From Oscillospiraceae bacterium (GTDB lineage Bacteria; Bacillota; Clostridia; Oscillospirales; Ruminococcaceae), in NCBI GenBank assembly GCA_022835495.1, contig BQOK01000001.1, positions 1,240,001-1,304,000 on the forward strand: a stretch of DNA of 64,000 nucleotides, in the 5' to 3' direction. Below the pieces are notes generated by a model that saw only the letters and a list, made by a program, of their open reading frames with translations, did not search any database and was not told where the DNA came from. A program made the position numbers and the translations under genes. Of the stretch, positions 6,720-64,000 are shown piece by piece (position 1 is the stretch's first letter; each line of letters opens with the position of its first letter).

Positions 6720-7310
6720 ATGCCCGTTTATCATCTCACCGGCCCCGCACCCTATTTTACAAACTGCTTTGTGCTGATTACCGAGGGGGGCAGCGGCGTT
6801 GTTGTGGACCCGGCGGCGCCGCCCGAGCAGATTGAAGAGCTGCTGCAAAAGCACGGCGCAAAGCTCACCCATATCCTGCTCACCCACGGCCATTTTGACC
6901 ATGTGTACAGCCTGGGGGCGCTGTGCGGGGCCCAGCCCTGCCAGGTGTACATGGACCCGGCGGACGCGGGCGACACCCCGCTGTACCCGGTGGGCCTGCC
7001 CACCCTGCCCTATGCGGAGGGCGGGCGGATCCGGGTGGACGAACTGACCTTTACCGCCTGGCACACGCCGGGGCATACCCCCGGCAGCTGGCTGCTGGGC
7101 TGCGAGGACCTTTTGTTCTGCGGCGACACCCTTTTTGCAGGCAGCGTGGGCCGCACCGACCTTGCCGGCGGCGACGCCGACGCACAGCGGGCGAGCCTTG
7201 CAAAAATCCGGGCCCTGCCCCTGACGGAGGAAACCCGGGTGCTGCCCGGGCACGGCCCCTTTTCCACCCTGGGGGAGGAAAAGGACACAAACCCCTATCT
7301 TGCATTGTAA
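6720..7310 (+). CDS. MBL-fold metallohydrolase, glyoxalase II-like
   Basis: A compact 196-residue metallo-beta-lactamase-fold enzyme. LLTHGHFDHVYS at about 52 is the HxHxDH binuclear metal motif. HTPGHTPGSW at about 117 supplies another ligand, FCGDTLFAGSVGRTD at about 138 the bridging aspartate, and LPGHGP at about 176 the last histidine. This set fits the YcbL/glyoxalase II-like group, which hydrolyses thioesters such as lactoylglutathione analogues; the true substrate is unknown. I chose the ATG at 6720, directly after AAGGAGGCAGGT, over an upstream in-frame start at 6687 that lies inside the dtd tail. It lies 27 bp from dtd and 9 bp from hemZ, so it is probably part of the same operon. 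Confidence 0.88.
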   Translation: MPVYHLTGPAPYFTNCFVLITEGGSGVVVDPAAPPEQIEELLQKHGAKLTHILLTHGHFDHVYSLGALCGAQPCQVYMDPADAGDTPLYPVGLPTLPYAEGGRIRVDELTFTAWHTPGHTPGSWLLGCEDLLFCGDTLFAGSVGRTDLAGGDADAQRASLAKIRALPLTEETRVLPGHGPFSTLGEEKDTNPYLAL

Positions 7311-55916: not shown

Positions 55917-56009
55917 GGCGGCCGCCCTGGCGGGAGAAAGAACGGATAAGACGTGAATATGGTTTGCCGGCGTGTTAAAAACGCGGCGGCCCGGAAATAA
56001 AACGGAGCG

Positions 56010-56067
56010 CCAAACCACAGCGCCCCTCCCGGTTTGAACCGACCGGGAGGGGCGCTCTGTGGTTTGG
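56010..56067. repeat. Long inverted repeat between convergent genes
   Basis: CCAAACCACAGCGCCCCTCC and four further bases pair with the mirror sequence ending TGTGGTTTGG. This gives about 24-bp arms around an 8-base loop, with one or two mismatches. It is longer than an ordinary terminator and lacks an adjacent T run on the plus side. It may be a bidirectional terminator or a small repeat element. The rest of 55917-56126 shows no gene. Confidence 0.7.
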
Positions 56068-56126: not shown

Positions 56127-57755
56127 TTACTCCCTTTGTTCCAGCGCGGTCTGGTCCAGCAGGCCCATACGCCGGGCGCCGTGGGTGAGCTGAACCAGAA
56201 GATCGTGCAGCTGGCCGGCGGTGGCGGTGAAATCCAGCACCACATTGGCCGCAGCGGCCAGGGAAATGGCCTCCAACGGGATGCCCAGCTGCAAAAACAT
56301 CAGGGTGTAGCAGGAGATGGCGCCGCCGGGGATGGGAGGCGCCGCCACCGACAGCACCACCGCGTTCACCACGCACAGCACCAGGCTGCCTGTGGACAGC
56401 TCGACCCCGTACACCTGGGCCGCGAACAGGGGCACCAGAATGAACAGGTTCACCGCGTGGGGCATGAACACCACGCTGCCAAAGGGCAGGGCGAAATTGG
56501 TGAGCTTTTCATCGATGCCCAGCTCCTTGCGGCAGCAGTGCATCATGGAGGGAAACGCCGCCGCCGAGGAGGCGGTGGTCAGCGCGATCAAAAACGGCGG
56601 CCCCAGCTTTCGGACGGCCTGCAGGGGCGAGAGCCCCGCCTTCATCAGGGAGAGGGTTTCCAAAACCACCTCCAGGGCCGAGAGCGCCACCGACAGGGCC
56701 ACCACCCGCAGCAGACCCGCCGCGCTTTGCGCCAGGGCCCCCTGCAGCATGAGCCGCAGCACCGACAGAAAGATGAACCCGGGCACCAGCGCGCTGATGG
56801 CCGAGAGGATGAACTGCACCACCGCGTTGGACTGCTCCACCACCTGCCCCAGCGCCTGCAGCCGGTCGCGCAGCAGGATCATCACGACCCCCACCACCGC
56901 GCCCATGAACAGGATCTGCAGGGTGTTGCCGGCCAGGAACGGCTCCACGATATTGCCGGGCACCACGTCCAGCACCATTTCCACAATGGACTGGAAAACG
57001 CTCTGGCTACTTTGCAGCCCGCTCAGGGCCGGCCGGAAACAGACCAGGGCCGCCGCCATGCAAAAAACGCCGAAGGTCGAGGAGATGAGTAAAAAACGGC
57101 CCAGCAGCTTGCGGCCGATCACGCCCAGCCGGCGGGTATCGCCGATGTTCACGATGCCCCACACCATTGAGAGAAACATCATGGGGCCCACAATGCAGGA
57201 GAAAAGCCCCAAAAAGGTATTGAAGAGCGGGTTCAGCAGCGTATCCAGCAGCGCGCTGCGCCAGCCCTGGGGCAGCAGCAGCCCCAGCCCGCCCAGCGCC
57301 AGCGCCAGCACGGCGGCAAAGAGCACCTGTGAGAGCTGGCTGTGCCTGCGCCCGGCTTTTTGGGTGCAGGAGAGCAGGTTGCAGCCGCCGCGGTATTGCC
57401 AGACCAGAGAAAGGCCCAGGTTTTCCAGCATGGCCCGGCCCAAAGCTTCGCTGCCCAGGGCCTCGTTTTCCGCTTCGCCCGGGGCCAGCGGGTCGCAGGG
57501 CGCGCCGCCGCAGCGCAGGGTCAGCAGCACCCGGCCCATCCGGCGTGCCAGTTCCACCGTGTAATGGGCGTTTAGCCCTGTTTGCCGCTGCCAGTACAGC
57601 AGCACCTCTTCCACCGACAGGCGGTTGCGCAGCGCGTCTTTGTGGTCGGCGCCCAGGGCTTCCAGGCCCTGGCCCACAAAGTCGGCCGCAGCGCCGATGC
57701 CCTGTGGGGAAAAGTCGAACGTGCCGCGCAGAAACCTGCGCTTTTGAAGCTCCAT
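56127..57755 (-). CDS. Cation:dicarboxylate symporter-family transporter with N-terminal HATPase-like domain (paralogue B)
   Basis: A 542-residue protein in two parts. Residues about 1-130 are soluble: RNRLSVEEVLLYWQ, then a CGGAPCDPLAPGE segment and LGLSLVWQYRGGCNLLSC. They follow the plan of RsbW/SpoIIAB-type GHKL ATPase domains but lack the usual catalytic-looking residues. Residues about 140-530 are a cation:dicarboxylate/amino acid symporter, with the serine-rich re-entrant loop TTASSAAAFPSM (about 428) and PPIPGGAISCY (about 483) in the second hairpin. Uptake of acidic amino acids or C4 acids is inferred; the soluble domain may regulate transport. It starts 18 bp after its paralogue ends, with AGGGAGGA as ribosome site. 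Confidence 0.8.
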   Translation of the reverse strand: MELQKRRFLRGTFDFSPQGIGAAADFVGQGLEALGADHKDALRNRLSVEEVLLYWQRQTGLNAHYTVELARRMGRVLLTLRCGGAPCDPLAPGEAENEALGSEALGRAMLENLGLSLVWQYRGGCNLLSCTQKAGRRHSQLSQVLFAAVLALALGGLGLLLPQGWRSALLDTLLNPLFNTFLGLFSCIVGPMMFLSMVWGIVNIGDTRRLGVIGRKLLGRFLLISSTFGVFCMAAALVCFRPALSGLQSSQSVFQSIVEMVLDVVPGNIVEPFLAGNTLQILFMGAVVGVVMILLRDRLQALGQVVEQSNAVVQFILSAISALVPGFIFLSVLRLMLQGALAQSAAGLLRVVALSVALSALEVVLETLSLMKAGLSPLQAVRKLGPPFLIALTTASSAAAFPSMMHCCRKELGIDEKLTNFALPFGSVVFMPHAVNLFILVPLFAAQVYGVELSTGSLVLCVVNAVVLSVAAPPIPGGAISCYTLMFLQLGIPLEAISLAAAANVVLDFTATAGQLHDLLVQLTHGARRMGLLDQTALEQRE

Positions 57756-57773
57756 CGGTTTTTCCTCCCTTCG

Positions 57774-59363
57774 TCAGCGCCGCAGCGCTTCACGGTCCAG
57801 CAGGCCCATGCTGCGCGCGCCGTGCACCAGCTGCACCTGCAAGCCCAGCAGGTTGCCGCAGGTATCGGTGAAATCCAGCACCACATTGGCGGTGGCGGCG
57901 ATCGAGATGGCCTCCAGCGGGATGCCAAGCTGCAGGAACATCAGCGTGTAGCAGGCGATGGCGCCGCCCGGGATCGGCGGCGCAGCCACCGACAGGATGA
58001 CCGCGTTCACCACGCACAGCACCAGGCTGGCGGTGGAGAGCTCCACACCGTAAAGCGAGGCGGCAAACAGCGGGACATACACCATGGTCATGGCGATCTG
58101 CGGCATGAACACCACGCTGCCGAAGGGGATGGCAAAGCGGGTGAGTTTTGGGTCGACGCCGAGCTTGTTCTCACAGCAGTCCATGTTCAGGGGGTACGCC
58201 GCCGCGGACGAGCCGGTGCTCAGGGCCACCAGCGCGGTGGGCAGCACCTTTTTCAGGGCGGCCAGCGGCCGCTCGCCCTCGCGCAGCAGCGAGAGCAGGT
58301 GGAGAGCCGCGTTTACAAAAAGCAGCAGCAGCGTGAGGGCCAGCATCCGGGCAAGGCTGGCCGCGTTGGAGGCGAGTTCGCCCTTGAGCACCAGCCGCAG
58401 CACCGACAGAAAGATAAACCCCGGCACCATACCGCCGATGGCAGAAAGAACGAGCTGCACGATGGCGTTGGACTGCTCCACTACCTGGTTCATGACCTGC
58501 ATCTGGTCCCGCAGCAGGATCATGCCCACCCCCACCACCGTGCCGAGAAAGAGGATTTGTAACGTGTTGCCGGTCAAAAAAGGGTCCACGATGTTTTTGG
58601 GCACGATGCCCAGCACCATCTCCACAATGGAGCTGAGCACCGAGCCCCCTGTGCCGCCGGGCGAAACGGCGGGCCTGAACCACAAGAGCGCCGCACCCAG
58701 CGCCAGCGCGGCAAACAGGGTGGAAACCAGCAAAAACCGGCTGAGCAGCTTGCGGCCCACCAGCCCCAGCTGGCGGGTGTCGCCCACATTCACGATGCCC
58801 CACACCATTGAGATGAACATCATGGGGCCCACGATGCAGGAAAAAACGCCCAAAAAGGTGTTGAAAAGAGGGTCCAGCACGCCGGTGAGCAGCCCCCCGC
58901 GCCAAGCGCCCGGCAAAAGCATCAGCAGGCCCCCCAGTGCAAGAGCGGCGGCCAGCGCCAGCAGCACCAGCGCCAGCTGGCCCAGCCTGCGCTTGATTTT
59001 TTTGGTGCAGGAAACGGTATTTACTCCGTCGCGGTAGCGGTAGGTGAGGCCGAGCCCCAGATTGGTCAGAAGCTGCCGCTCCAGCCCGCCCGCCTCGCCG
59101 CCCGCAAAGGGGTCGCGCGGCAGGCCGCCGCACCGCACGGCCAGGGTGAGCCTGCGCAGCCGCCGGCCCAGCTCCACCACGGCAAAATCGTCGGTGCCGC
59201 CGGCCTTCTGCCAGGCCAGCAGCACCTCCTCCACCGACAGGCGGTTGCGCAGTGCGTCCCGGCGGTCCGCACCCAGCGCCTCCATCCCGGCCTTTACAAA
59301 TTCCGCCGCCCGGTCGATGCCGCCCGGCGTGAGGGAAAAGCGCTCTGTACGATCCGCATTCAA
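57774..59363 (-). CDS. Cation:dicarboxylate symporter-family transporter with N-terminal HATPase-like domain (paralogue A)
   Basis: A 529-residue tandem paralogue of the downstream gene with the same fused layout. The soluble N-terminus (about 1-125) carries RNRLSVEEVLLAWQ, CGGLPRDPFAGGE and GLTYRYRDGVNTVSC. The transporter part has STGSSAAAYPLNM and PPIPGGAIACYTLMFLQLGI. The listed start is TTG 59363, giving an N-terminus of the right length but with a poor ribosome site. The nearest ATG (59388) is in another frame and only a few bases from the predicted transcript start, so the start is uncertain. The two genes probably form one operon. Confidence 0.78.
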   Translation of the reverse strand: MNADRTERFSLTPGGIDRAAEFVKAGMEALGADRRDALRNRLSVEEVLLAWQKAGGTDDFAVVELGRRLRRLTLAVRCGGLPRDPFAGGEAGGLERQLLTNLGLGLTYRYRDGVNTVSCTKKIKRRLGQLALVLLALAAALALGGLLMLLPGAWRGGLLTGVLDPLFNTFLGVFSCIVGPMMFISMVWGIVNVGDTRQLGLVGRKLLSRFLLVSTLFAALALGAALLWFRPAVSPGGTGGSVLSSIVEMVLGIVPKNIVDPFLTGNTLQILFLGTVVGVGMILLRDQMQVMNQVVEQSNAIVQLVLSAIGGMVPGFIFLSVLRLVLKGELASNAASLARMLALTLLLLFVNAALHLLSLLREGERPLAALKKVLPTALVALSTGSSAAAYPLNMDCCENKLGVDPKLTRFAIPFGSVVFMPQIAMTMVYVPLFAASLYGVELSTASLVLCVVNAVILSVAAPPIPGGAIACYTLMFLQLGIPLEAISIAATANVVLDFTDTCGNLLGLQVQLVHGARSMGLLDREALRR

Positions 59364-59516: not shown

Positions 59517-59567
59517 AAAAAAGCCGCCCCGGCGCGGGGCCGTTCGGGCCGGGCGAGGGGGGCGGCT
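59517..59567 (-). terminator. Terminator after the sensor kinase gene
   Basis: On the minus strand AGCCGCCCC pairs with GGGGCGGCT, followed by TTTTTT, with a second GC-rich hairpin in the loop. Confidence 0.8.
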
Positions 59568-59582
59568 GATAAAAGGGGGCGC

Positions 59583-61576
59583 TCAGGGGGAACCGGGGGA
59601 TTGCAGCAGCGGGAAGAGCACCTCGAACCGGCTGCCCGCGCCGGGGGCGGACTCCACCCGTACACGGCCGCCCATGACCTGCGCGCTCTCCTTTACGATG
59701 GCCAGGCCCAGGCCCAGCCCCCCGTCGCCGGGGCGGGTGGTGAAGCCGCGCCGGAAGACCTGCGGCAGATCCCCGGGCGCGATGCCGCGGCCAGTGTCGG
59801 CCACCGAGATCACAGCCCAGCCGCTCTCCTGCGCGAGGCCCAGGGTCACCGCGCCGCCCGGGGGCGTAAAGTCCGCCGCGTTGTACACCAGGTTCTGCAG
59901 GATGCGCTCCACCTGCCCTCCGTCCGCCTGCACGATGCAGGGGGCGGGCGGCAGCGCCAGCAGGAAGTCCACGTCCCGCACCTCCACGTCCGGGCGGTTT
60001 GAATCGTAAAAGCGCCGCAGCACAGCGCAAAGGTCCAGCGGCTGGGTGGCCGGCGCGGTGAGCTGGTTTTGGTTCCACTCCTGGATGGTCTGCATGCGGC
60101 CCCCCAGATCGCGGCACTTATCCACAATGAGGGCCAGCTTGGCCCGCTGGTCACCGTCCAGCCGGACGCCGTTTTCCTGCACCAGCAGCGCGTAGTTCTG
60201 CACCAGCGAGAGGGGCGATTTCAGGTCGTGCAGCATGCCGGAAAGCAGCTCCCGCCGCTCCTGGATCATGGTGGTCAGGTCGGCGGTCTGGCGGGCCACT
60301 TCCTCCTGCAGATGCCCGGTCAGCCGCAGATTTTCCTGCGCCAGGGCCCGGCTGCGGCCCGCCATGAGCGCGGCAAAGCACAGCACTAGCGCAAACCCGC
60401 CGTATTCTTCGGGCCAGGCGCCCCACAGGGGCTCGTACGCGCCGTTCCACAATACGCCCGCCCCCTGGGCAACGGCAAAAATGCCCAGCCCGCACAGGGT
60501 AATGCTGCCCTGCCGGGCAGCGCTTTTCAGCGACAGCAGCAGCAGCGCGGCGGCCATCCCCAGCTGGTACCAGCTCACCAGCAGGCCGTAGACCCCCGAG
60601 AAGGCGGGCAGCAGGGGCAAAAGCAGGGGCGAGGCGGCGGCCCCCAGGATGCACATGGCGAGGGCCAGGGGGAACAGGCCATAGCGGGCCCAGCGTGCCT
60701 TTTCCCAGCCGCCCAGGCGGCATACCATGCGCGCCGCACAGTACAGCACAAGAAAAGCGCCCAGGTCCTCGAGCGCGTAGAGCGGGCGGATCAGGGGGAC
60801 CCCCGCCGCCCGGAAAAAGGGGTAACACACCCGCAGGGCAAACCCCAGGCACAGCACCCCAAACCGCAGGTATAACGGGTCGCGGTTTTGGGGGCGCAGC
60901 CACACGGTGACCGAGAACAGAGCCACGGCCAGCGAGGCAAAGCACAGCAGGCCGTAAAGGGCCATGCGCAGCGCCACATAGCGCCCCACCGCGGCAGGGA
61001 GGCCCACCACCGGCGGGTAGATGAGGCCGGAGGCGTAGTGGGTGAAATTGGCCGTCTGGACCACCACCTCGGTCTCGCCGTTTAACCGGAAGGCGTAAAG
61101 CCCGTCCGCCACACGGGGCGCGTAGGGCGAAACCGAGCCGGTGCCCCCCACAAGCTCGCCGTTCACGTACACCGCGCTGGCGCAGTAGGCCTCGGGGATG
61201 AGCATGCACACCTGCACCGGCCGGTCGGCGCGCAGCCGCACCCGCCAGGTGGCCGCCCCGTAGGGCGAGCCGTCGGCATGATAGGGCCGCAGGGTCAAAA
61301 ATTGGCCGATGTAGGTATCCACCGGGGCCGGCGCGCCCGCGCCCAGCTGGCCGGGCACCAGCAGAGCGTCCGGCCAGAGCTGCCAGCCGTCCACCGGCAC
61401 GGCCAGGCCAGGGTCCCCCGTTCCAGGGCGCCGGTTTCCAAAATCAGGGCGCCGTCTTGCGCGAGGGGGGCGCGTGCGGTATACTTATTGTCGAAACAGA
61501 AGAGAAGCCAGAGCGCCGCCGCGGCCAGAAGGCAGCAGCCCAGCGCGGGCAGAAGGTGTTTGCGGTTGTGCGTCAT
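59583..61576 (-). pseudogene. 7TM-type sensor histidine kinase, interrupted by a frameshift
   Basis: Two overlapping frames together encode one kinase of about 664 residues. The first (from ATG 61576, after GAGGTGAT) gives a signal-anchor and the start of the outer domain up to ALERG. The second (running to 59583) starts within VPVDGWQLWP and holds the rest: outer beta domain, about seven membrane helices, and an intact kinase core with LHDLKSPLS (phosphoacceptor His), LQNLVYNAADF (N box), VADTGRGI (G1) and GGLGLGLAIVKE (G2). One extra G in the G5 run (plus-strand C5 at 61415-61419) would join them as ALERG-DPGLAVPVDG. The longest uninterrupted frame is 59583-61400. No response regulator gene is adjacent. 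Confidence 0.8.
61415..61419 (-). other. Homopolymer tract at the kinase frameshift
   Basis: This is a run of five C on the plus strand (five G in the coding sense). Six would restore the kinase reading frame. It is a likely site of slipped-strand change or of a sequencing error. Confidence 0.75.
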
Positions 61577-63260: not shown

Positions 63261-63323
63261 GCATTTTGGGGAAGATGCGCGCTGAAAATTGATGATAAAT
63301 TGAAATTTCTCCCAGCTTTTCCA

Positions 63324-63332
63324 TGCTATACT
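63324..63332 (+). promoter_or_regulatory. Extended -10 promoter for the amino acid permease gene
   Basis: TGCTATACT (TGn-extended) about 65 bp before the start; TTGAAA at 63300-63305 is 21 bp upstream, too far for ideal use. Confidence 0.5.
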
Positions 63333-63397
63333 CGAAAAAGGGCGGCGTTTATGTGCCCGGGCGCGGCGGCGCCCGGCAGGAAAGGGGCGTGAAACGC

Positions 63398-64000
63398 ATG
63401 AGGTGGATCTCCGCTTGGGCGGATACGCTTTACAGCACGTTTGTGGCCGGCGGCGCATGGCTGAGCATCCTGCGGGGGCTTGGGGTAACGCTTGTTATCA
63501 CCGTGCTGGGGCTTTTGCTGGGGCTGGCGCTGGGGAGCGCGGTGTATTTTGCCCTGCGCTCCCGGCTTTGGCCGCTGCGGCTGGCGGGGCGCGGATATGT
63601 ATCCCTGGTGCGCGGCACCCCGGTGCTGCTGCTACTGATGTTTCTGTTCTATGTGGTCTTTGCACGCACCCGGGTGGACGCCATTGTGGTGGCGGTGCTT
63701 GCCTTTGGTTTGAACACCGCTGCCTACATTGCAAAGATCATCGAGTCCGCCGTGCAGGCGGTGGAGCCGGGCCAGGTGATGGCGGCCCGCACCATGGGCT
63801 TTACCGCAGGGGCGGCATTCCGGCTGGTGGCGGTGCCGCAAGCCGTGGTGTTTGCCCGCCCCATGCTGCAAAATCTGGCGGTGACCACGCTGCAGTGGAC
63901 CTCGGTGGTGGGCTACATCACCATCACCGACCTGACCCGGGTGACCAACAACATCGGGGCGCGGTCGGCAAAGCCGTTTCTGGTGCTGGGGGCAGGCATT
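63398..64000 (+). CDS. Polar amino acid ABC transporter permease (5' part)
   Basis: The first 201 residues of an inner-membrane permease, open to the end of the window. GVTLVITVLGLLLGLALG is the first helix of the His/Glu/Gln/Arg permease family. SLVRGTPVLLLLMFLFYVVF at about 69 and AAYIAKIIESAVQAVEPGQV at about 107 are typical, and AARTMGFTAGAAFRLVAVPQ at about 129 is the EAA loop that contacts the ATPase. The substrate is probably a polar amino acid. The ATPase and binding protein genes should lie beyond the window. AAAGGGG precedes the ATG. Confidence 0.92.
   Translation, partial: MRWISAWADTLYSTFVAGGAWLSILRGLGVTLVITVLGLLLGLALGSAVYFALRSRLWPLRLAGRGYVSLVRGTPVLLLLMFLFYVVFARTRVDAIVVAVLAFGLNTAAYIAKIIESAVQAVEPGQVMAARTMGFTAGAAFRLVAVPQAVVFARPMLQNLAVTTLQWTSVVGYITITDLTRVTNNIGARSAKPFLVLGAGI

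Follow-up and report, generated by a model that had tools for sequence, protein, structure and literature searches.

Tandem SDF-family symporters with a degenerate RsbW/SpoIIAB-type domain and their possible control by a partner switch

The main known use of partner switching is to free sigma factors, with a few other known outputs, for example a c-di-GMP enzyme and biofilm regulators. Two neighboring genes in a 64,000-nucleotide stretch of an Oscillospiraceae genome (the window) raise the question of what an RsbW-like domain might do on a transporter. An earlier note, made from the letters of this DNA, had described them as tandem symporters with the same soluble N-terminal domain, compared this domain with RsbW/SpoIIAB-type GHKL domains based on the order of its motifs, and suggested direct control of uptake by nucleotide or by a partner-switch protein. 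The open reading frames, P0001 and P0002, lie in tandem on the minus strand, separated by 18 bp, and their products share 63% identity across 528 aligned columns. The locus contains the following features:

56004..56026, minus strand: terminator-like hairpin 3' of symporter 2 (consensus scan only)
56019-56056, plus strand: 16-pair hairpin near the end of symporter 2 (consensus scan only)
56127-57755, minus strand: symporter 2 (P0001), 542 aa
56217..57329, minus strand: SDF transporter domain, P0001 residues 143-513 (PF00375, E 3.2e-55)
57351..57755, minus strand: degenerate RsbW/SpoIIAB-type domain, P0001 residues 1-135 (54% identity with the P0002 domain, alignment A3)
57774-59363, minus strand: symporter 1 (P0002), 529 aa, TTG start
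57843..58967, minus strand: SDF transporter domain, P0002 residues 133-507 (PF00375, E 3.8e-56; PDB matches; full-length AF2 model)
58992..59363, minus strand: degenerate RsbW/SpoIIAB-type domain, P0002 residues 1-124 (AF2, Foldseek, VIA, hhalign)
59526..59540, minus strand: terminator-like hairpin between the sensor kinase gene and symporter 1 (consensus scan only)
59583..61400, minus strand: sensor histidine kinase, upstream neighbor of symporter 1 (HATPase_c, PF02518, E 7e-26; HisKA score below the cut-off, membrane part judged by eye)
63323..64000, plus strand: ABC permease, cut by the window end (PF00528)

Fold and ATP site of the N-terminal domain

The first ~125-135 residues of P0001 and P0002 gave no Pfam match at E <= 10, and a Pfam scan of both chains found neither HisKA nor HATPase_c. 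A sequence-profile search of the PDB with the N-terminal domain returned nothing meaningful (best E 0.33); its fold was settled by fold search. The AF2 model of the P0002 domain, built from alignment A3 after removal of rows more than 85% identical and of L130, has a pLDDT of 89.3, a pTM of 0.83 and the topology E-H-H-E-E-H-E-E. Its top 17 Foldseek matches are UsfX, RsbW and SpoIIAB (E 2e-7 to 2e-5). VIA, a second look at the Foldseek matches that covers only the families listed there, gave Z scores of 14.3 for UsfX, 13.5 for RsbW and 13.2 for SpoIIAB; this group spans 14.3-12.8 and all others reach 10.0 at most. The further structural matches LvrC, SiaB (Z 9.1), DesK and CheA are taken to reflect the GHKL fold in its wider sense.

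Sequence comparisons point the same way. The domain profile aligns with RsbW-type sequences in hhalign at 98.4% (E 6.6e-15 for one comparison), and PF13581 is the sole Pfam family matching more than one of 71 N-domain members (14/71, best E 2.8e-6), among which the P0002 domain has no Pfam match of its own. A single RsbW query finds fused N-terminal domains at two loci (L161, E 4e-4; L085, E 7.5e-4), a single N-domain query finds a STAS-kinase-HATPase protein (E 2.9e-4), and the N-domain-only profile A3 recovers the stand-alone RsbW of the window's genome (E 2.4e-9) as well as RsbW-size frames elsewhere. Taken together, the predicted structure and the profiles support a GHKL/HATPase_c_2 domain of the RsbW/SpoIIAB type. 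The fold assignment of the earlier note is thus borne out, an unrelated fold did not turn up, and the motifs it quoted are found in P0002 (RNRLSVEEVLL at 39-49, CGGxPxDP at 78-85, GxNxxxC at 113-119).

Conservation was counted in 99 distinct homologues. From 109 homologous open reading frames, seven with a match starting after residue 27 or ending before residue 400 were set aside and the two window proteins added, giving 104 rows; five repeats (a second P0002 copy and four exact duplicates) were then removed. One set-aside row, L121 14254-15897 (547 aa), has an unaligned N-terminus of ~110 residues. E45 is present in 99/99 and N115 in 98/99 homologues. The G1-box Asp is found in none of the 99, with an Asp one column later in 31, and GGLG (the G2 box) is likewise absent from all of them. 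The Mg-binding Asn of the N box is kept in seven and gone in 92, P0002 having A50 at this position; only three homologues combine this Asn with the shifted Asp. The catalytic Glu of the N box persists in 91/99, with Asp in five more. In P0002, the hhalign alignment shows the ATP lid to be deleted. Among RsbW-type rows from the same loci, N-box Asn, G1 Asp and GGLG are all kept in 22/27.

Judged by these residues, the HATPase reading is correct for the fold and not for the function. Since the ATP-site residues are gone family-wide, a domain that gates transport according to energy charge, by binding ATP or ADP, is very unlikely, even with its GHKL fold, its retained N-box Glu and the shifted Asp of about a third of the homologues, and the nucleotide control proposed earlier is not supported. 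A minority of the N-terminal domains may still bind nucleotide, as their shifted Asp or N-box Asn would allow. The earlier note had also placed a Cys at the Asp of the ATP lid. A Cys does replace an Asp, but C78 of P0002 aligns with the G1-box Asp and not with the lid. Since just 5/99 homologues have Cys at this column, C78 was not taken to have a Cys-specific (redox) role.

The transporter part and the distribution of the fusion

Both proteins match PF00375 from about residue 133-143 onward (188-191 bits against a cut-off of 27.9; E 3e-55 and 4e-56), confirming two transporters with a common soluble domain of ~125-135 residues ahead of the SDF part. The PDB matches of the P0002 SDF part are glutamate-transporter homologues. 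Its full-length AF2 model (pLDDT 89.0, pTM 0.82) was built from alignment A4, restricted to matches reaching residue 500 and proteins of at most 560 aa, with rows more than 80% identical removed.

Within the SDF/DAACS family (PF00375; GltPh, AncInt), the symporters share the transporter domain and the equivalents of D394 (D or E in 98/99) and T398 (T in 97/99). They differ by the extra N-terminal domain and by loss of the R397, D405 and NMD equivalents. P0002 carries FMPQI at the NMD motif, D500 at R397 and L508 at D405; Asp occurs at the D405 and at the D312 equivalent in 1/99 homologues each, and Arg at the R397 equivalent in 1/104 rows, counted before duplicate removal. An ordinary Na+/dicarboxylate symporter was rejected as unlikely on the loss of the R397, D405 and D312 equivalents. 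With R397, D405 and the NMD equivalents lost, acidic substrates are unlikely, as are the GltPh Na1 and Na3 sites. A neutral amino acid, or another that is not acidic, is the probable substrate. For the roles of R397 and D394 in the glutamate-transporter family we rely on passages of PMC12668577. The transporters themselves are odd, an SDF branch without the NMD and carboxylate-binding residues of GltPh.

The fusion is not a chance event: N-terminal domain and SDF part occur together in 97 distinct homologous open reading frames besides P0001 and P0002. In 391 genomes of the class, the N-domain profile found an intact fused symporter frame in nine, including the window's genome. A tenth (G284) holds an N-domain remnant broken by stops, with no SDF part in the surrounding 14 kb. 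A contig scan with one protein as query found no relative; the alignment-based scan did. Fused genes are also present in records of Acetobacterium species, Blautia schinkii DSM 10518 and Oscillibacter sp. MSJ-31.

Genes around the fused symporters

In the window's own genome, a set of switch genes starts just past the window end, ~8-14 kb from the symporter pair and on the opposite strand (contig coordinates):

G000:C1 1304075-1319974: ABC-HATPase (degenerate), STAS, MATE-HATPase, PP2C, RsbW, second ABC-HATPase (degenerate)
G000:C1 1307054-1312843: STAS, PP2C and RsbW
G000:C1 1308713-1310464: MATE exporter with a C-terminal intact HATPase_c_2 domain

The gene following the permease at the window end encodes its ABC ATPase, which carries a C-terminal degenerate RsbW-like domain (E 6.7e-31 against profile A5, which includes this domain), followed by an SBP_bac_3 binding protein. 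One ABC C-terminal domain in this genome retains the N-box Asn. The MATE exporter resembles the symporters in joining a transporter to an RsbW-type domain, but its domain is C-terminal and has the N box, the G1 Asp and GGLG.

Similar genes recur elsewhere. We examined 80 loci, the best 80 of 127 hits, drawn from many families with repeats excluded. Among these best 80 of 127, STAS genes occur in 32, PP2C genes in 22 and RsbW genes in 20, so that 34/80 have at least one switch gene, defined as STAS, PP2C (SpoIIE) or intact RsbW; the corresponding number is 0/20 at control SDF loci, which were hand-picked from non-fused rows, all come from the window's family, and include one whose SDF gene itself fell under the search threshold. 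Restricted to loci of at least 15 kb, switch genes are found in 27/51 versus 0/20 controls (Fisher p 8e-6); once the fused proteins are clustered at 60% identity, 12/34 clusters versus 0/20 controls show the association (p 0.002). No switch gene was seen in the DNA examined, where some flanks are short, for 46 of the best 80 of 127 loci, which include the four Acetobacterium symporter loci (L156, L159, L160, L162), and among the long loci for 24/51. In two Acetobacterium-like switch clusters, no STAS gene was found.

A second carrier of such a domain is an ABC protein that ends in a degenerate RsbW-like domain, present in 35 of the best 80 of 127 loci and mostly a fused polar-amino-acid importer. 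These loci hold 36 ABC frames, of which 34 were scanned with Pfam, the short fragments L092 and L113 being left out; ABC_tran was found in 34/34, BPD_transp_1 in 31 and SBP_bac_3 in 30. Their C-terminal domains show the N-box Asn pattern in 1/35 and GGLG in 0/35. Either a switch gene or such an ABC gene accompanies the symporter in 46 of the best 80 of 127 loci, and in 39 of these 46 the nearest STAS, PP2C or ABC gene lies on the same strand within 100 bp.

The acceptor-type motif Y[ILV]SSAGL is present in 35/37 STAS proteins, and both motifs looked for are present in 18/23 PP2C proteins. A single SigF seed detected no sigma gene at the best 80 of 127 loci, a search that recovered the seed's own source locus and that ECF or distant sigma factors would escape. 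At the genome level, a further A3 match is present in 9/9 genomes with an intact fused symporter versus 38/382 others (p 2.5e-9), a test that uses A3 for both features and thus shows co-occurrence of related domains rather than of a defined switch gene. The partner-switch alternative raised in the earlier note is supported by this gene context, in the window's own genome and across loci.

A proposed partner switch with transport as its output

Based on these observations, we propose, with a probability of roughly 0.6, that a PP2C/RsbW/STAS partner switch has the activity of the transporters as its output. The symporter would be an SDF-fold amino-acid transporter and its N-terminal domain a pseudokinase derived from RsbW/SpoIIAB-type serine kinases, placed at the output end of the switch. 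A membrane-bound PP2C protein (SpoIIE-type) and an RsbW-type kinase, separate or fused, would govern whether a small STAS protein is phosphorylated. In its unphosphorylated form, this protein would dock on the transporter-borne pseudokinase domains and alter transport, and phosphorylation would release it; binding could either open or close transport. Because its ATP site is lost, the pseudokinase could not phosphorylate its partner in this proposal, so that STAS occupancy would depend only on the intact kinase and phosphatase. Polar-amino-acid ABC ATPases end in a like domain, through which one STAS protein could set several uptake systems together. A broader version has about even odds in our view: a sigma-factor-free switch would set a battery of transporters (SDF symporters, polar-amino-acid ABC importers, probably MATE and ABC exporters), with STAS moving between intact RsbW and the pseudokinase domains as a general post-translational regulator of nutrient uptake in Clostridia and some other gut bacteria.

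The direction of signaling could also be reversed, with the SDF part acting as a sensor (a transceptor) whose substrate occupancy alters the titration of STAS or kinase by the pseudokinase and whose output lies elsewhere. Linkage to PP2C and STAS genes is compatible with either direction, and the canonical coupling residues D405, D312 and R397 are mostly gone. We nevertheless consider this unlikely: the D394 and T398 equivalents are retained, as a functional substrate site would require, the PP2C proteins, judged by eye, seem to have membrane N-termini of their own as inputs, and a similar domain sits on ABC importers and an ABC exporter, and intact on the MATE exporter, transporters that make implausible sensors.

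RsbW and SpoIIAB form dimers, and the domains could likewise pair without any switching, joining SDF and ABC transporters or stabilizing oligomers. The related domains of the two transporter types, encoded by symporter and ABC frames that overlap by ~4 bases in many loci, would fit such a role, as would MlaF, whose assembly, according to PMC7367683, depends on its C-terminal tail and on the STAS protein MlaB. It is also unlikely, leaving unexplained both the fused symporters at loci without an ABC gene and the STAS, PP2C and intact RsbW genes at 34 of the best 80 of 127 loci. That the domain is a decaying, functionless fusion tolerated by the transporter would agree with its lost catalytic residues and with the G284 remnant; the near-invariant E45 and N115, its retention across several families and the recurring gene neighbors make this extremely improbable.

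The N-terminal domain resembles the anti-sigma serine kinases SpoIIAB, RsbW and UsfX (PF13581) in fold, sequence ancestry and often in its STAS/PP2C company, but has lost the ATP-site residues, is fused to a transporter and has no SigF-type sigma gene found alongside. SiaABCD of Pseudomonas aeruginosa, in which PP2C, kinase and STAS proteins control the c-di-GMP enzyme SiaD and not a sigma factor, likewise has a non-sigma output, and SiaB is a structural neighbor of the N-terminal domain; the parts of PMC9239204 considered here describe an enzyme as output and no pseudokinase domain fused to it. In MlaFB, the STAS protein MlaB acts on a transporter through the cytoplasmic ABC ATPase MlaF; it binds the ATPase itself, and kinase, phosphatase and RsbW-like domain go unmentioned in the corresponding parts of PMC7367683. 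None of the titles and abstracts retrieved from the open-licence PMC literature describes a fusion of an RsbW-like domain with an SDF or ABC transporter.

If the proposed partner switch operates on these transporters, it would provide fast, reversible control of amino-acid uptake at the protein level, assembled from components of the sporulation type, with pseudokinases to dock on. It would also suggest a role for those STAS, PP2C and RsbW genes of Clostridia that lack a neighboring sigma factor. With the remaining switch genes next to related symporter genes in many gut bacteria, the findings suggest that bacteria may turn nutrient uptake up or down directly through a switch best known for the control of gene expression.

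Fold and degeneration of the symporter N-terminal domain

The two tandem SDF symporters are 63% identical, are separated by 18 bp and lie in the following order (window positions):

56004-56026, terminator-like hairpin just 3' of P0001 (consensus matching only)
56127-57755, minus strand, P0001 (symporter 2), ORF of 542 aa
57774-59363, minus strand, P0002 (symporter 1), ORF of 529 aa
59526-59540, terminator-like hairpin just upstream of P0002 (consensus matching only)
59583-61400, sensor histidine kinase (Pfam), upstream neighbour of P0002

Because the hairpins flank P0002 upstream and P0001 downstream, the two genes may be transcribed as a unit. The SDF match (PF00375) starts at residue 143 in P0001 and 133 in P0002, and a Pfam scan gave no match upstream of it in either protein.

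The earlier note had read this upstream part (N-domain) as HATPase-like and proposed structure prediction with a fold search, which bore out the fold. An AF2 model based on 71 non-redundant N-domains (alignment A3) was confident (mean pLDDT 89.3, pTM 0.83), with the element order strand-helix-helix-strand-strand-helix-strand-strand. Its top 17 PDB matches in Foldseek were all anti-sigma kinases, namely UsfX, RsbW and SpoIIAB (8ih8_D, E 2e-7). VIA Z scores were 14.3 to 12.8 for this group, and outside it 10.0 for LvrC, 9.1 for SiaB and at most 8.3 for histidine kinases and others. In an HMM-HMM comparison, the N-domain matched 27 RsbW-type sequences, which include some genomes twice, at 98.4% (E 6.6e-15 for this one comparison). 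The A3 profile, which contains no intact kinase, recovered the stand-alone RsbW of the window's genome (E 2.4e-9). PF13581 was matched by 14 of the 71 N-domains (best E 2.8e-6), no other Pfam family by more than one, and none by the N-domain of P0002. These results demonstrate that the N-domain is of the RsbW/SpoIIAB type in ancestry and fold.

Residue counts cover 99 distinct homologues, namely P0001, P0002 and 97 proteins from other loci. E45 (99), the N-box Glu E46 (91), G80 (96), Y110 (91) and N115 (98) are kept. The N-box Asn column holds N in seven, the G1 Asp column holds D in none (V 59, Y 17, A 7, C 5), and the column after it holds D in 31; three combine an N-box Asn with an Asp in the G1 column or the adjacent one, and GGLG occurs in none. 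Aligned with RsbW, P0002 lacks the lid segment. Among the 27 RsbW-type sequences from the loci, 22 have all three motifs, three have lost GGLG and two both G1 and GGLG. The ATP site of the N-domain is thus lost. The replacement of an Asp by Cys described in the earlier note stands for both window copies, and three other proteins share it, but the column is that of the G1 Asp and not the ATP lid.

Linkage to switch genes and a second class of transporter

A search of genome contigs with a 10-sequence alignment gave 127 relatives, of which the best 80 were kept, by record title mostly Clostridia MAGs, but also Acetobacterium, Blautia schinkii, Oscillibacter and records labelled Sphaerochaeta, Spirochaetales, Eggerthellaceae and Coriobacteriaceae; one relative labelled archaeal we suspect to be a binning error. 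Neighbours in these 80 loci were searched with single seeds (E 1e-3). A STAS gene was found in 32 loci, PP2C (SpoIIE) in 22 and an RsbW-type kinase in 20; this kinase typically forms the C-terminal part of the PP2C protein. In 35 loci there is an ABC frame whose C-terminus is a second degenerate domain of the RsbW-like kind. Any switch gene was present in 34 loci, a switch gene or such an ABC gene in 46 and both in 23. In 39 of these 46 loci, the nearest STAS, PP2C or ABC neighbour is at most 100 bp from the symporter and in the same orientation, and the two genes often share a few bases. The STAS acceptor-type motif was present in 35/37. With a SigF seed, which recovered its own source locus, no sigma gene was found in the 80 loci.

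As controls, we hand-picked 20 loci of 12-20 kb from 19 genomes around SDF genes without the N-domain. The SDF gene was recovered in 19, and the same neighbour search found a switch gene or ABC gene of this kind in none. The fused symporters are linked to switch genes (34/80 loci against 0/20, Fisher p 1e-4; long loci of at least 15 kb only, 27/51, p 8e-6; clusters of fused proteins at 60% identity, 12/34, p 0.002), in a comparison whose controls all come from one family and whose fused loci are the best 80 of 127 matches. Tandem fused symporters are frequent, with two to three homologous frames, some partial, in 16 of the 80 loci (including L086, L106, L120 and L148), often placed around the ABC gene.

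Among 34 scanned ABC frames, ABC_tran was matched in 34, BPD_transp_1 in 31 and SBP_bac_3 in 30; together, these matches indicate that the majority encode a single-chain fused importer of the polar-amino-acid type. In HMM-HMM comparisons, the last ~125 residues of 37 ABC proteins with this domain, among them those of the window's genome and G407, scored 98.4% (E 5.6e-15) against the RsbW-type set and 97.8% against the symporter N-domain. An Asp, an EE pair, a Gly and a late Asn are invariant in an alignment of 31 sequences. Among 35 distinct domains, the N-box Asn pattern occurs in one, from the window's genome, and GGLG in none. A second transporter class therefore carries the same kind of domain as the symporters. 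The profile of this domain matches 46/391 genomes, with ABC proteins and RsbW-type frames mixed.

In the window's own genome, a switch cluster extends beyond the window end (contig positions unless stated; L059 and L081 are loci of this genome):

window 63323, start of an ABC permease
1304075-1305172, ABC ATPase with degenerate C-terminal domain
1305212-1306075, SBP
1306136-1306822 (L059:8137-8823), minus strand, response regulator (by eye), ~5 kb beyond the sensor histidine kinase and on the same strand as it
1307054-1307347, STAS
L059:9380-10747, protein of 455 aa flanked by STAS and MATE-HATPase, unmatched in Pfam at 1e-3
1308713-1310464 (L059:10714-12465), MATE exporter with intact HATPase_c_2 (PF13581, E 7e-19)
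1310478-1312436, SpoIIE phosphatase
1312433-1312843, stand-alone RsbW
1316127-1318757 (L081:6128-8758), two tandem permeases of 435 and 436 aa, NCS2/AzgA-like by eye
1318883-1322202, second ABC ATPase with degenerate domain, and SBP-permease

The MATE-fused domain has N box, G1 and GGLG all present, and the two NCS2/AzgA-like permeases have no extra domain. MATE-HATPase-like frames also occur near fused symporters in several loci. The sole further STAS match of this genome sits in a STAS-RsbW-sigma trio, which we read as spoIIA. Two Acetobacterium-like genomes, both from the same genus, each have a single cluster made up of MATE-HATPase, PP2C, RsbW, SBP-permease and the ABC protein with degenerate domain (RsbW and ABC called by profile, the others by eye). 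The symporter lies outside this cluster in both, and the STAS seed matched nothing within it.

Substrate and distribution

The full-length AF2 model was confident (pLDDT 89.0, pTM 0.82). In an alignment of P0002 to AncInt (PDB 9BGZ, E 1.8e-32), D497 aligns with D394 and T501 with T398, D500 with R397, L508 with D405, and FMPQI with NMDGT. The site numbers are those of GltPh. Among the 99 homologues, the D394 position holds D in 85 and E in 13, T398 is T in 97, and the D405 and D312 positions are D in one each; the R397 position is R in 1 of 104 rows before removal of duplicates. PMC12668577 gives the name AncInt and the D394 and R397 positions, and assigns binding of the side-chain carboxylate to R397 and that of the amino group to D394. 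Since the R397, D405, NMDGT and D312 equivalents are mostly lost, we infer that the substrate would be a non-acidic amino acid and that GltPh-type sodium coupling is probably absent.

By profile search, an intact fused symporter frame occurs in 9/391 genomes of the class, probably Clostridia, and a tenth, G284, has only a broken N-domain remnant with stops (L058, ~6854-7135), with no SDF match within 14 kb. Within the family, the full protein matched in 35/148 genomes, non-fused SDF transporters being common, and both parts matched only in the window's genome, G021 and G078. The window's genome has two non-fused SDF paralogues. By eye, an ABC exporter (L046:3054-5138, G112, 694 aa; L193, G455) also begins with a degenerate domain of the N-domain type, and a second SDF branch (L005/L056:3077-4720, G021; L194:1417-3117, G369) has an N-terminal domain of this type. 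Because this branch keeps NMDGT and has a canonical-looking TM8, the fusion may have had more than one origin. One-chain proteins of STAS, a phosphotransferase-like part (by eye) and an intact RsbW domain occur in L055:6533-8152 (G401), L195 and L206; that of L055 adjoins STAS and PP2C genes.

A candidate partner switch acting on transport

Partner switches with non-sigma outputs are known from SiaABCD (PMC9239204) and SypA (PMC8256260), and in MlaFB an ABC ATPase is the target of a STAS protein (PMC7367683). Transporters with RsbW-like domains as outputs are unreported in the open-licence literature searched. Unphosphorylated STAS would dock on the pseudokinase domains of the transporters and alter transport, with the occupancy of these domains set by kinase and phosphatase. 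The PP2C proteins seem to carry their own membrane N-termini, which are likely the inputs of the switch.
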